From a bacterium (GTDB lineage Bacteria; AUK180): a DNA stretch of 7,126 nt. The stretch's first letter is position 1. Every line of letters starts with the position of its first letter. The notes beneath the pieces are model-generated. The model searched no databases. It was given only the letters and a program-made list of their open reading frames with translations, and had not been told where the DNA came from. The translations under genes and the position numbers were made by a program. Positions 1-6,874 of this stretch are shown here, one piece after another. The stretch spans positions 1 to 7,126 of the forward strand of contig JAUXGM010000110.1 in NCBI GenBank assembly GCA_030622125.1, written 5' to 3'.

Positions 1-234
1 GGGGAATAAAATCCATAACAATCCATTATATCCATAGCTAGGGGAAATAAAAATTTTATTTAAACTCAAAAATATTTTTGTAGATCCTGGTAATTTAGCC
101 CCCATTAATTCTATTTTTTCCTGAAACATGTAATCTATAATCGATACAAAACCACAAAAAATAAAAATGCTAAAGCATGAAACAATATATAAAAAAATAA
201 ACACACCTTTTTTAACAATATTATTTATATTCAT
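1..234 (-). CDS. Partial small membrane protein, candidate immunity protein to the Rhs tip
   Basis: An open frame of 78 codons runs from an ATG at 234 off the left edge without a stop. The start is preceded by a strong Shine-Dalgarno sequence (AAGGAGGG, 245-238) at a 3-nt spacing, and it lies only 9 nt after the Rhs-tip stop, so the two are probably co-translated. The visible product has a lysine-bearing N-terminus, one clear membrane segment at about residues 10-33 (VFIFLYIVSCFSIFIFCGFV), a loop of about 35 residues with the stretch GAKLPGSTKIF, and the start of a second hydrophobic segment (GLLWILF) at the edge. Small multi-pass membrane proteins directly behind a toxin tip are commonly its immunity protein; that role is inferred here from position and topology only. 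The GxxLPxxTK-type loop faintly recalls the LPxPTR segment of type II secretion F-domain proteins, a resemblance I cannot test. The existence of the frame is well supported; its function is not. Confidence 0.6.
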   Translation of the reverse strand, partial: MNINNIVKKGVFIFLYIVSCFSIFIFCGFVSIIDYMFQEKIELMGAKLPGSTKIFLSLNKIFISPSYGYNGLLWILFP

Positions 235-237
235 TTT

Positions 238-245
238 CCCTCCTT
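238..245 (-). promoter_or_regulatory. Strong Shine-Dalgarno sequence overlapping the Rhs stop codon
   Basis: AAGGAGGG on the minus strand sits just before the ATG at 234 and shares bases with the TAA stop (246-244) of the Rhs fragment. It fixes the start of the downstream membrane protein and suggests that ribosomes finishing the Rhs tip can re-initiate there. By contrast, the Rhs fragment itself has no such site. Confidence 0.7.
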
Positions 246-828
246 AATAGTATCTATTAAATTTATCCCAACACTCTTCTGAAAATTTTGCTGCTTCAAT
301 AGCATCTAAAATATTTTGATAAGTTAAATTTGGATCTCCATAATATTTTAAATTACCTGCTGCTATATTATTTGAATTTTCTTTTACATACTCAACTGCT
401 GCCTGTATTGTAGCAGTGGGATTTTTAGATAAATAATTTAATATTTCTTCATTAACACCGACCATATTTCCTGGAGTATTTTTCCCTTCAAATGCAATCA
501 ATCCCTTCACAATATCCGGTTTCATCCACCTTCCATTGTTATAGTCAAGGTAACGAGCACCGAAATAATCAAGATTTGATTCAGAATCACGCTCTTTCCC
601 CGTGAAGTTGTAATTAGATGATAGATGATCGATGTTAGATGTTAGTAAAGTCTTTTGTTCACTTATTATGTTACCGAATGGTCCAAATAAGGTTTTTTCA
701 ATCCAATCACCATTCTCATCCGTAAGCATTACATTACTGCCCAATATATCTTGATGAAATACCTCTTCACCTTCAACCACTAAGCCTTTAAGTAATGAGA
801 TTATTACGGATTTTTTCAAAATCCTCAT
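244..828 (-). CDS. Rhs core C-terminal fragment with polymorphic toxin tip (5'-truncated)
   Basis: This 194-codon frame encodes the last part of an Rhs/YD-repeat protein. Residues 24-105 match the Rhs-associated core: FHQDILGSNVMLTDENG, FGPFGNIISE, FTGKERDSESNLDYFGARYLD and GRWMKPDI. That core closes the Rhs shell just before the variable tip. Residues 106-194 are an acidic tip ending in WDKFNRYY that I do not recognise; in this family such tips are usually toxins released inside target cells. Full Rhs proteins exceed 1,000 residues, so nearly all the YD repeats, export signals and shell are missing. The first 22 residues are not Rhs-like and overlap a perfect hairpin in the DNA. The ATG at 828 has no Shine-Dalgarno sequence, and the frame stays open upstream only to a TAA at 876-874. 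The core part is visibly less AT-rich than the tip, the usual sign of tip exchange. It may be a silent tip donor, a pseudogene or a read-through product of the ATPase operon. Confidence 0.8.
   Translation of the reverse strand: MRILKKSVIISLLKGLVVEGEEVFHQDILGSNVMLTDENGDWIEKTLFGPFGNIISEQKTLLTSNIDHLSSNYNFTGKERDSESNLDYFGARYLDYNNGRWMKPDIVKGLIAFEGKNTPGNMVGVNEEILNYLSKNPTATIQAAVEYVKENSNNIAAGNLKYYGDPNLTYQNILDAIEAAKFSEECWDKFNRYY
808..824. repeat. Perfect hairpin GGATTTT-TTC-AAAATCC
   Basis: A 7-bp perfect stem with a 3-nt loop sits in the first codons of the Rhs fragment. A second short palindrome, TGACtgcGTCA, lies just outside at 831-841. Neither is followed by a T-run on either strand, so they do not look like terminators. 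They fall between the 13-bp repeat (860-872) and the recognisable Rhs core, in a segment that is neither Rhs nor ATPase, and may belong to the mobile or REP-like element that made the junction. Confidence 0.5.
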
Positions 829-859
829 AATGACTGCGTCACTTTTGACTTGTTTTTTT

Positions 860-872
860 GGTGTGTCCCGGA
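860..872. repeat. 13-bp direct repeat, left copy (GGTGTGTCCCGGA)
   Basis: This 13-mer recurs exactly and in the same orientation at 7072-7084, on the other side of the ATPase operon. Here it begins 12 nt past the ATG that overlaps the atpA stop, at the point where the expected atpB sequence is lost. Both copies are preceded by T-rich sequence containing TTGTT or runs of T. It resembles a short interspersed repeat or element end. No transposase is visible in the window. Confidence 0.6.
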
Positions 873-884
873 TTTATTTTTCAT
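873..884 (-). pseudogene. Possible four-codon stump of atpB (V-ATPase subunit B)
   Basis: The atpA stop TGA (883-881) is overlapped by an ATG (884-882) in the ATGA arrangement also used at three other junctions in this operon. The new frame reads M-K-N-K and then enters the 13-bp repeat, ending at a TGA 15 codons later after an unconvincing peptide. Subunit B normally follows A directly in V/A-type ATPase operons, so this ATG is best read as the original atpB start, cut off after four codons. The evidence is positional; four codons are too few to identify a gene by similarity. Confidence 0.4.
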
Positions 885-2605
885 TCTTCCATTTCATTCT
901 TGATAAAATCAATGTCATCATCAAATTTTTTTGATGGGAAGGGATGAAATTTCAATCGTTGTATCTTCTCAACACTTTCCAAATTATTTAATTTATTAAA
1001 TGAGACACCTTCCCGTAATTTTTCAATCCCAAAATCAAAAAATTCAAGTATTATTTCAGCAAGTTTCACCTGCTTTTCAGGCACACAGTAATTATCTATC
1101 GTATCATAAGCATCCTGTTGTAAGAATCCTCTTTTTATTAGATTGGCGGTAAGAACATTTAATTTCTGTCTGTCGGGAAGTGATTCAAATCCAACTATTT
1201 TTATAATATTCTCAAGCTTATCCGCTGTTTGAAGAATTGCCTTTATCTTTTTTTTCATACCGATCCAATCAATATTCCCTTTCAATTGCCACCAGTCCTT
1301 GAGTTCTTCATCATATTCCGAATAACTTGTTTTCCATGATATTGCAGGAAAATGCTTTGCCGACGACAATGTTTTATCAAGTGCCCAAAATCCTCTAACA
1401 AACCGTTTTGTATGTTGAGTTACCGGTTCGGAAAAATCTCCGCCCTGAGGAGATACGGCACCGATAGCGGTAATACTTCCCTCTTCCTTGTTTAATGTCC
1501 GAAAATGCCCCGCTCTTTCATAGTATTCGGCAAGACGAGAAGCAAGATATGCGGGATAACCTTCCTCGGCAGGGATTTCTTCAAGGCGAGATGATATTTC
1601 TCTTAATGCCTCAGCCCATCTTGATGTGGAATCGGCAAGTATCGCAATATTATATCCCATATCCCTATAATATTCTGCAATTGTTATACCTGTATAGATA
1701 CTTGATTCCCTTGCGGTAACAGGCATATTCGATGTATTTCCAATTATTATTGTTCTTTCAATGAGCGGCTTTTTCGTTTTCGGGTCGATTAACTCCGGAA
1801 ATTCCTCTAAAAGTTGAGCGATCTCATTTCCTCTTTCACCACAACCTACATAGATTATTATATCCGCATTACTCCATTTTGCAATTGAGTGCTGTACTAC
1901 CGTTTTACCTGCTCCAAAACCACCCGGAATTGCAGCAACTCCCCCAAGTGGAATAGGAAAGATAAAATCCAATACTCTCTGCCCTGTAAAAAAGGGTATA
2001 TTTATATCAAGACGGTCGATTACCGGTCTTTTTGTTCTTACTCCCCAGGTTTGATAGCCTTTTATTTCATAGATAGATCCATTTTCAAGTTCTATTTTTG
2101 CAAATATATCCCTTACTGTCCGATCACCTTTTTGTATCTCTTTTATTTTTCCATTTATTCCCGGTGGAACCATAATGAAGTGTTTTATATCGTATTCATA
2201 AACATAACCGAGTTTTTCACCCTCAAAAACAACATCTCCGCTTTTTTTCAATGCCTCAAACTTATAGGTTCTTTTATCATCCAATGGAAAAGGAAATAAT
2301 CCTCTTTTTATAAAGCCGTCCTCAGGAAATCTTTTTAGCGGTCTGCCTATACCATCATATATGGAACCCAAAAGTCCGGGACCAAGACAAACAGAAAGCG
2401 GATGTCCCGATGAATCTACTTTTTCTCCGATCTTTAATCCGGTTGTATCCTCATAAACCTGCACGATAACATTTTCCTTATTTAATTCAATAACCTCACC
2501 TATGATATTTAATTGCCCGACATTGACCATTTCACCCATTTTCACTATGCCGTCATTATCACACTTTATAACAGGTCCGTTGATACTCTTAATCTTCATA
2601 TTCAT
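881..2605 (-). CDS. atpA: V/A-type ATPase catalytic subunit A
   Basis: Catalytic subunit of the soluble V1/A1 head. With subunit B it forms the A3B3 hexamer that hydrolyses or makes ATP and turns the central stalk. The 574-residue length is normal. In order: an N-terminal beta-barrel beginning IKSINGPVI, the A-specific bulge at about 110-190, the P-loop GGFGAGKT (228-235), the catalytic-glutamate motif GERGNE (256-261), the Walker B-like [15 protein letters not shown] (322-336), [17 protein letters not shown] (338-354), and [23 protein letters not shown] (380-402) around the nucleotide pocket. A helical C-terminal domain follows. No key residue is missing. The ATG at 2605 was preferred over the one at 2599 because a GAGGA site (2618-2614) lies 8 nt upstream of it. 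It overlaps the E gene by 17 nt. The C-terminus looks complete, but subunits B and D do not follow, so any product from this locus would need partners encoded elsewhere or beyond the left edge. Confidence 0.97.
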
Positions 2606-3125
2606 TTAGCAGTTCCTCATTTAATTTCCGATCGACCAATTTACTCATTTCTTCTTTTAAATAAAATTCCGAAAAATCTATCTCGGTATTTCCATCATCA
2701 TATAAGATCTTAAAACCATAATTAAAGTTTCCTTTCCTGTACCCTTCTATATTTTGCAACCTACCTATCAATACAATTGATTTTTTCTTTGTATCTAAAA
2801 TTTCTTTGAGGTGAGCTTTAAGTTTAATTTCTTTTGATGGTGAAAGAAGATCCGCTTCCAATTTTTCTAATAGGACTTCTTTAAAATGAATTGAAAGTGT
2901 GGAAAGTAATTTTAATCTTTCCCTTTGTTCCATAAGTTCCAATTTTTTTTGAGAAACCTTTTCTTTATGATCTAAAAATTTTTCTAAATTTTCTTTCTTT
3001 TTTTTATAATCTTCTGCTAATGCCTCCTTCTTTTTATCATAAGTATCCCCGAGCACTTTCAGTTTACTTTCCCATTTCGCCTTTATTTCATTTAGCATCT
3101 CAATTTTAAAGCCGAGTATTTCCAT
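2589..3125 (-). CDS. atpE: V/A-type ATPase subunit E (peripheral stalk)
   Basis: Peripheral-stalk subunit that pairs with the H/G coiled coil to hold the A3B3 head against rotation. The roughly 178-residue protein is close to the usual length. Residues 8-75 are a charged coiled coil rich in K and E (for example EALAEDYKKKKENLEKF). The C-terminal half is a mixed alpha/beta globule with the family-like ending GFKILYDDGNTEIDFSEFYLKEE, matching the G-x-x-V-x-x-x-D-G-x-x-x-x-D-x-T/S-F pattern of E subunits. I chose the ATG at 3125, which follows a GGAGG site (3136-3132) at 6 nt and overlaps the F stop as TGATG. A TTG one codon earlier would also fit. An A8 run within the coiled coil keeps the frame intact. 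Identification rests on shape, C-terminal motif and position between F and A. Confidence 0.88.
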   Translation of the reverse strand: MEILGFKIEMLNEIKAKWESKLKVLGDTYDKKKEALAEDYKKKKENLEKFLDHKEKVSQKKLELMEQRERLKLLSTLSIHFKEVLLEKLEADLLSPSKEIKLKAHLKEILDTKKKSIVLIGRLQNIEGYRKGNFNYGFKILYDDGNTEIDFSEFYLKEEMSKLVDRKLNEELLNEYED

Positions 3126-3406
3126 CAAATGCCTCCGACCATCTTTTTCAACATTCTCTCAATCGAACCTTTTGATATCTCGCCTCGATTTTCTCTATCG
3201 GGAATTGGAATTATGGCTTTCCGGAGTTTTAGATCTATTGAATCCTCAATTTCCTTAAAAATACCCTCGGTAATCAGGATCAATGGAAAATTCTCATTCT
3301 CAATAATGGAAAGCACTTTATCGGGATCCTTTACGATCTTAACATTGAAACCAAAGTTCTTATAATTAAGAAAAAATTTGTCATCACTTATGAAGATATG
3401 TTTCAT
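3125..3406 (-). CDS. atpF: V/A-type ATPase subunit F (central stalk)
   Basis: Small Rossmann-like subunit that binds the rotor shaft (subunit D) and can modulate activity. At 93 residues it is slightly short for the family (about 100). It shows the typical alternation: strand MKHIFISD, strand VKIVKDP, helix DKVLSIIENE, strand FPLILITEGIFKEI (matching the I-x-L-I-T-E signature of F subunits), then AIIPIPDRENRGE and a C-terminal helix SIERMLKKMVGGI. That Pro-rich stretch followed by a helix resembles the family's IP..x-G ending. It overlaps subunit K upstream by ATGA (3406-3403) and subunit E downstream by 1 nt, so it is almost certainly translationally coupled to both. Its partner D is not present in the window. 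Confidence 0.9.
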   Translation of the reverse strand: MKHIFISDDKFFLNYKNFGFNVKIVKDPDKVLSIIENENFPLILITEGIFKEIEDSIDLKLRKAIIPIPDRENRGEISKGSIERMLKKMVGGI

Positions 3407-3789
3407 ATCCTGAACAGGATCAATAATGCTACGATTACCCCATAAATTGCAATACCTTCGGCAAGACCGACATATAATATCGTTTTTCCAAAAAGCTCCG
3501 GTTTTTCAACAATAGCACCTATTGAAGCACTTCCTACTCTTTCTACCGCTTTACCGGCAGCAATAGAGCCAAGTCCAACCGCTATTGCAGCAGCAAGGAC
3601 ACCGCCTATAAATTTTATTGCGTCGGATTTTGTAACCTCTTTTTTTTGCACTATTTTTTCTTCATCGTTCGCACTTAACTTTTGTGGCAAAAAAAGTAAA
3701 AATGAAAAGATCAATGCAAAAGCAATTTCACCTATTAAGATTATGATCTTTGCTCTTTTCAATTTTTCCACTGCTTTTTCTCTATTCAT
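3403..3789 (-). CDS. atpK: V/A-type ATPase proteolipid subunit K (rotor ring) with N-terminal signal-like extension
   Basis: Ring-forming, ion-carrying subunit of the membrane sector. The core (about 55-128) is one two-helix hairpin: FIGGVLAAAIAVGLGSIAAG, a polar loop VERVGSASIGAIVEKPELFGK, then TILYVGLAEGIAIYGVIVALLILF carrying the ion-binding carboxylate E111. The PELFGK loop and AEGIAIYG are family hallmarks. Unusually, about 50 residues precede the hairpin: a basic N-terminus, a hydrophobic segment (14-35) and LPQKLSA-NDEE, which reads like a cleavable signal peptide. The Thermus proteolipid is also made with a signal sequence, and c-type rings have both termini outside, so the extension is plausible. 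Neither the Gln seen in helix 1 of Na+-binding rings nor the polar residue after the glutamate is present (E111 is followed by Gly), which hints at proton use; this is inference. AGGAGG (3802-3797) overlaps the subunit I stop and sits 7 nt before the ATG. Confidence 0.93.
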   Translation of the reverse strand: MNREKAVEKLKRAKIIILIGEIAFALIFSFLLFLPQKLSANDEEKIVQKKEVTKSDAIKFIGGVLAAAIAVGLGSIAAGKAVERVGSASIGAIVEKPELFGKTILYVGLAEGIAIYGVIVALLILFRI

Positions 3790-6394: not shown

Positions 6395-6695
6395 TTTCCA
6401 GCCATTCTAATATCTCTGTTTCTTTTTCATTAAATTTTTTTTCTATCTTACCTTTCATTTTCTTTAGATCATCATTTATGATCTTTTCTGCTTTCTTCTC
6501 GTTATTGTCAATTTGCTGCTTTCGTTTAATGCTAAGTAGATCAAGTTCTTCTTTTAATTTTTCTTCATCTTTTTGAAGAACTTTTTTATATTCTGTTTCT
6601 GCTTTATTGTGTTCATTTTTATATTTGTCTTTTTCTTTCTCTAATTCCTCATTGATCTTATAGAGCTTGTCAATAAAATTTTTATCCTGTTTCAT
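6381..6695 (-). CDS. Coiled-coil V/A-type ATPase peripheral-stalk subunit (H/G type)
   Basis: This 104-residue protein is almost entirely a charged coiled coil. It is dominated by Lys and Glu with hydrophobic residues at heptad spacing (for example IDKLYKINEELEKEKDKY and KKMKGKIEKKFNEKETEI), and it has no Pro or Gly-rich breaks. Size, composition and position match the H/G (AhaH, NtpF) subunit, which winds around subunit E to form the peripheral stalk between the soluble head and subunit I. Low-complexity coiled coils cannot be assigned firmly by eye, so the call leans on context. The ATG at 6695 overlaps the TGA of the upstream miniprotein (ATGA). The nearest good Shine-Dalgarno, AAGGAG (6718-6713), is 17 nt away, so translation likely depends on coupling. 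The 3' end overlaps the C-like gene by 14 nt. Confidence 0.78.
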   Translation of the reverse strand: MKQDKNFIDKLYKINEELEKEKDKYKNEHNKAETEYKKVLQKDEEKLKEELDLLSIKRKQQIDNNEKKAEKIINDDLKKMKGKIEKKFNEKETEILEWLENELL

Positions 6696-6805
6696 TTTTC
6701 TTTTCTAAATAGCTCCTTAAATATATAGTAAAGCAAAAGTCCCAAAGCTGCGATCTTTATAATAGAAAAGAGATATGCAAGGATCAGATCTATTGTTTTA
6801 ACCAT
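6692..6805 (-). CDS. Single-pass membrane miniprotein, first gene of the ATPase operon
   Basis: A 37-codon frame starts with ATG at 6805 and ends in TGA at 6694-6692. The product is MVKTIDLILAYLFSIIKIAA followed by LGLLLYYIFKELFRKEK: one hydrophobic segment (about 6-29) with a strongly basic tail, predicting N-out/C-in topology. Its stop overlaps the start of the coiled-coil subunit as ATGA, the same coupling used elsewhere in the operon, and it lies directly behind the only clear promoter. A second in-frame ATG at 6835 would give 47 residues, but it lies only about 4 nt from the likely transcription start. Neither ATG has a well-spaced Shine-Dalgarno sequence; AAAGGG is about 18 nt from the 6805 ATG. 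I know of no named V/A-type ATPase subunit like it. Small membrane proteins that help ring assembly do occur in some F-type operons. A translated leader acting only in coupling is an alternative. Confidence 0.55.
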   Translation of the reverse strand: MVKTIDLILAYLFSIIKIAALGLLLYYIFKELFRKEK

Positions 6806-6845: not shown

Positions 6846-6874
6846 ATTATAACACTTTATCAATACTATTTCAA
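6846..6874 (-). promoter_or_regulatory. Sigma-70-type promoter of the ATPase operon
   Basis: On the minus strand a TTGAAA -35 box (6874-6869) and a perfect TATAAT -10 box (6851-6846) are separated by exactly 17 nt. Transcription should begin near 6839-6840, giving a leader of about 34 nt before the miniprotein ATG at 6805. It is the only strong promoter seen, and no terminator is visible down to the window's left edge, so one transcript could cover all ATPase genes and continue into the Rhs fragment. Confidence 0.75.

Follow-up and report, generated by a model that had tools for sequence, protein, structure and literature searches.

The genes of V/A-type ATPases are kept together in the closest relatives of the genome studied here (G000). 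In all four same-family genomes compared, hereafter the sisters (G001; G002, JAGGYO010000074.1; G003; and G004, JAGLGN010000004.1), subunits A, B and D are followed by x3, x4 (EIIA), birA, coaX and a TPR gene, contiguously on one contig. No more than 4 nt separate the stop codon of A from the start codon of B: TAG is directly followed by ATG in G001 and G004, and the junction reads TAATG in G002 and TAG-TAAT-ATG in G003. The same adjacency holds for 80 of 80 loci of a genome collection that were picked for their similarity to A and for nothing else: B comes next on the strand of A, and the gap between the matched parts does not exceed 263 nt. A search for relatives found no second genome of the same genus as G000. 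Separation of A from B occurs in two unrelated genomes: about 7 kb of unrelated genes lie between them in G007 (L235, 5385-12409), and one gene of about 1.4 kb, in a gap of about 1.5 kb, in G044 (L236, 4413-5943). In bacterial evolution, according to the abstract of PMC4481853, the division of gene blocks is frequently observed; a literature search for scattered V/A ATPase operons returned nothing useful.

The window, meaning the whole stretch of 7,126 nucleotides that was analysed, is an entire contig (C192) of G000, whose assembly comprises 2.08 Mb in 192 contigs and is 96% complete. On its minus strand follow, in this order, a small membrane-protein ORF and the genes of subunits H, C, I, K, F, E and A (Table 1). 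The membrane part of a V/A-type ATPase is thus present with K and I. Neither an ORF search nor a profile search finds atpB or atpD within the window, and their absence from it, as originally noted, is confirmed. The 37-aa membrane ORF at the head of the operon resembles an ORF at the equal position in G001, G004 and G003. It is absent from the list of open reading frames and may encode a small ATPase-associated protein.

Table 1 Features of the window (contig C192), in order of position.
Feature	Position	Strand	Basis or remark
ORF after the Rhs tip, at least 78 aa, runs off the contig	1..234	minus	immunity-type by position only; without family match
Truncated Rhs tail: Rhs-associated core fragment and variable C-terminal tip	244..828	minus	TIGR03696, 6.4e-10
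Second dispersed palindromic repeat, GTCATTATGAGG...CCGTAATAATCTC	794..834	minus	41 bp exact match to other contigs
Dispersed repeat, TCCGGGACACACC...	848..872	minus	25 nt exact match to other contigs
AATGAAA: atpA stop and possible relic of the atpB start (M-K)	879..885	minus	same heptamer begins intact atpB from C39:258
Subunit A, 574 aa, complete	881..2605	minus	NF003220, 8.1e-234; P-loop GGFGAGKT
Subunit E-type	2589..3128	minus	34-41% identity to equally placed sister ORF; without Pfam match
Subunit F	3125..3406	minus	PF01990, 9.1e-8
Subunit K, rotor ring	3403..3789	minus	PF00137, 2.3e-17
Subunit I, 601 aa	3801..5606	minus	PF01496, 8.1e-24
Subunit C-type, 263 aa	5603..6394	minus	39-47% identity to equally placed sister ORFs; without Pfam match
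Stalk subunit H/G-type, 104 aa	6381..6695	minus	position and homology to G003; without Pfam match
Small membrane-protein ORF, 37 aa, MVKTIDLILAYLFSIIKIAALGLLLYYIFKELFRKEK	6692..6805	minus	ATGA-coupled to H; heads the operon
Candidate promoter of the H-to-A half, TTGAAA-N17-TATAAT	6846..6874	minus	11/12, TG before -10; consensus match only

Complete atpB and atpD were found on another contig of the same assembly, C39, by a profile search of the genome's contigs. Behind 258 bp of non-coding DNA, atpB starts with the ATG at C39:259 and encodes 457 aa beginning MKYEKLYRSIKEIKG (MKYEKLYR), with three Pfam domains (PF00006, PF22919 and PF02874). The product of atpD is full length (PF01813, 5.4e-33). 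Next come a 145-aa ORF and genes for a PTS EIIA-type protein, a biotin-ligase-family protein, a type III pantothenate kinase and a TPR protein; the same genes come after atpD in the sisters. Overlaps of the ATGA type couple C to I, K to F and F to E in the window, and D to x3 on C39. Subunit B had been proposed to be lost; this does not hold, with B and D of the same ATPase intact on C39. The alternative offered alongside, which placed B and D at another site behind a different promoter, is supported by the C39 locus and its predicted TTGAAA-N17-TATAAT promoter.

G000 also encodes a second V/A ATPase, whose A and B genes lie on C137 and whose D gene lies on C29. We rejected the assignment of the C39 B to this enzyme, which has its own A, B and D: the C39 B is 67-71% identical to B of the contiguous sister loci, versus 55% to the paralogue. 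From this greater closeness we take the C39 B and D to be the partners of the window's A. Between C137 and C29, the contigs of the second set, there is an overlap of 284 bp that contains 5 mismatches and hints at a mixture of strains in the assembly.

On the minus strand, atpA ends in GAA GAA TGA, with the stop codon at 883-881, and an ATG at 884-882 overlaps it as ATGA. The frame opened by this ATG reads ATG AAA AAT AAA TCC GGG ACA CAC C... and stops after 19 codons: M-K-N-K takes up 884-873, and TCCGGGACACACC follows at 872-860. This succession of ATGA, M-K-N-K and a 13-bp repeat is as originally described. The further proposal that atpB itself began with M-K-N-K is rejected, B starting with M-[KR]-Y in the four sisters and with M-K-Y-E-K-L-Y on C39; at most, M-K is a remnant of the atpB start. 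Nor can the junction be fixed between 872 and 873, as had been claimed. The A side and the B side have AATGAAA in common, so the breakpoint may lie anywhere from about 879 to 872.

This heptamer flanks both ends of the break; being only 7 bp long and AT-rich, it could be there by chance. Those seven bases may also represent a target duplication left by an insertion. If the ancestral A and B were ATGA-coupled, duplication of AATGAAA on insertion would preserve the stop of A as well as the start of B, as seen; read as a target duplication, the shared AATGAAA would restore an ATGA-coupled A/B junction. Another candidate duplication, AATGAAAAA near C39:240, was set aside: it implies an ancestral gap between A and B of more than 15 nt, against at most 4 nt in the sisters.

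G000 is the exception among the same-family genomes: its A is followed by dispersed repeats, the Rhs tail and an ORF, and its B is preceded by a different repeat and a promoter, so that both ends of the break carry DNA absent from the sisters. The 13-mer TCCGGGACACACC has a second copy in the window, at 7084-7072, and 68 exact copies in the whole genome, versus 0 for the reversed control; the repeat is therefore real, far beyond chance. None of six related genomes (the four of the same family and two of the same class) contains it. It often occurs within a unit ...TATCGTTATCTAAGGAAGAATCCGGGACACACCTCAAC..., sometimes in tandem at 71-72 bp, with hairpin potential. Besides these copies, G000 has four matches to the Y1 transposase family (Y1_Tnp). 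REP/REPIN elements made by RAYT transposases would be marked by numerous palindromic copies scattered between genes together with a Y1 transposase; a connection of the 13-mer with the Y1 matches would be conjectural. The Rhs tail lacks its N-terminal part and is an orphan, cut on its 5' side at the palindromic repeat. An Rfam search of the window and the start of C39 gave no match.

On the B side, C39:62-197 is a dispersed repeat, 86-92% similar to sequences on C75, C171 and C74, that differs from the repeats on the A side. The predicted promoter lies at C39:214-242, 16 nt before the ATG of atpB, and scores 11 of 12. Promoter calls of this kind are consensus matches in AT-rich DNA: in a stretch of 400 bp, 3 sites were found versus 1.7 expected. 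Within the repeat, at C39:173-197, is an element, TTAACATTTTCATATTGTAACAATA, of which 12 copies were examined in G000 and 8 in the sister genus G002 (C39:173-242, L017; copies L150, L151, L153, L217-L225 and L227-L234). In 19 of the 20 copies the best -35/-10 pair starts 15-16 nt after TTAACATTTTCATATTGTAACAATA and matches at 9 or more of 12 positions; in 16 copies it matches at 10 or more. With shuffled flanks, this outcome was reached in 2% and 0.3% of trials, respectively, and by no more than 3 of 20 copies in any of 500 replicates. Among the 19, L225 is set apart by a poor -35 and the lack of an ORF downstream; about 18 of the 20 copies look like they precede true promoters.

The genes downstream of TTAACATTTTCATATTGTAACAATA, named by eye from their sequence, look unrelated across the two genera: a methionyl-tRNA synthetase-like gene and atpB in G000; a lysyl-tRNA synthetase-like gene, an initiator-type tRNA and a gcvT-like gene in G002. 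The element may be a global activator site, an UP-like element or a mobile promoter. That a dispersed promoter cassette (TTAACATTTTCATATTGTAACAATA 15-16 nt before -35/-10) landed directly in front of atpB, so that the B-D half became a transcription unit of its own, is a speculative and rather doubtful step. If true, a mobile promoter let a V/A ATPase operon split without loss of function, and A and B may be under different control.

Taken together, the data favour, with a probability of roughly four in five, the splitting of a V/A ATPase operon between atpA and atpB by repeat-rich DNA, its function kept in two transcription units. In the lineage of G000, a working operon would have been divided by repeat-rich intergenic DNA into an upstream half, the window (small membrane ORF, H, C, I, K, F, E and A), and a downstream half on C39 (B, D, x3, PTS-EIIA, birA, coaX and TPR). 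Both halves are whole at the break, the stop of A and the start of B (ATG AAA TAT) being kept. The B-D half would be driven by its own predicted promoter, of sigma-70 type and joined to the promoter-linked dispersed repeat. One complete enzyme would then be made from two units, the first transcribed from the promoter at 6874-6846 and the second from that on C39; the function of both promoters and the assembly of the enzyme are deduced here from sequence. The original view of a working operon interrupted by an insertion or rearrangement is borne out by the contiguous A-B-D order in the sisters and the A-B adjacency in the 80 loci.

How the halves came apart is less certain. Both contigs end near the break and no sequence joining C192 to C39 was seen, so that insertion and translocation cannot be told apart; the split would, on our estimate, somewhat more readily be explained by insertion. 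Alternatively, recombination between dispersed repeats may have moved the B-D half far away, by translocation or inversion. The different repeat families at the two break ends would fit such an event, as would the lack of a transposase in the sequenced part of the A-B interval, 1.1 kb in all. However, the contigs end close to the break, 0.88 and 0.26 kb from it, and are oriented as expected after an insertion, and insertions between A and B are known from G007 and G044; a translocation or inversion is possible, if on the unlikely side. More improbable is an assembly chimera, in which A and B adjoin in the real genome and the assembly of both contigs went wrong at repeats. In its favour, 21 of 41 examined copies of the 13-mer are no more than 300 bp away from a contig end, versus about 2 expected, and the overlap of C137 with C29 hints at mixed strains. 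Yet a chimera needs two independent wrong joins, each falling within the few bases that separate A from B. Exact sharing across the A-side join extends over 25 bp at most, with 41 bp nearby, which is short for a misjoin, and the DNA upstream of B has a proper predicted promoter at the right distance.

The least probable reading is that the split-set ATPase is dead, its B and D unexpressed or nonfunctional, and that the second V/A ATPase (C137, C29) works instead. A second set of A, B and D does exist in G000, but each of the four sisters also has two types of A. Each subunit gene of the split set has an open reading frame from end to end. Their identity to the G001 partners is 70% for A, 71% for the C39 B and 57% for the C39 D, compared with 64%, 70% and 51% between G001 and G002. 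The divergence of A, B and D from the sisters thus stays within that found among the sisters themselves, without accelerated decay, and the branch of the G000 A is not long in a tree of 86 sequences. The earlier suggestion of a dead enzyme finds no support in these comparisons; an intact ATPase, encoded by two transcription units, is probably what G000 has.

The preferred reading of a split operon with its function kept removes a claimed gene loss: annotation contig by contig would call this ATPase broken, and the genome encodes all of it. It also offers a clear example from nature of a conserved operon that was broken at the junction of its two main head subunits and retained both halves. The repeat and the promoter at the break suggest how operon splits are survived.

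Compared with the contiguous V/A-type operon of the sisters, G000 has the same genes in the same order, including x3, EIIA, birA, coaX and TPR downstream. The difference lies at the junction of A and B: they abut in the sisters, whereas in G000 they are kept apart by repeat DNA, by the truncated Rhs tail and by a gap between contigs or some distance. As in G007 and G044, unrelated DNA separates A from B; in those two genomes the halves share one contig and one strand, whereas in G000 the join is unassembled and the break is marked by dispersed repeats. The case of G000 is probably an ordinary operon split, not a dead enzyme, and operon splitting itself is already known. As with the gene-block splitting treated in PMC4481853, a conserved block has been divided and its genes kept. 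We see no difference in principle from what is set out there; the particular feature of G000 is that the second half stands behind a repeat-linked promoter.
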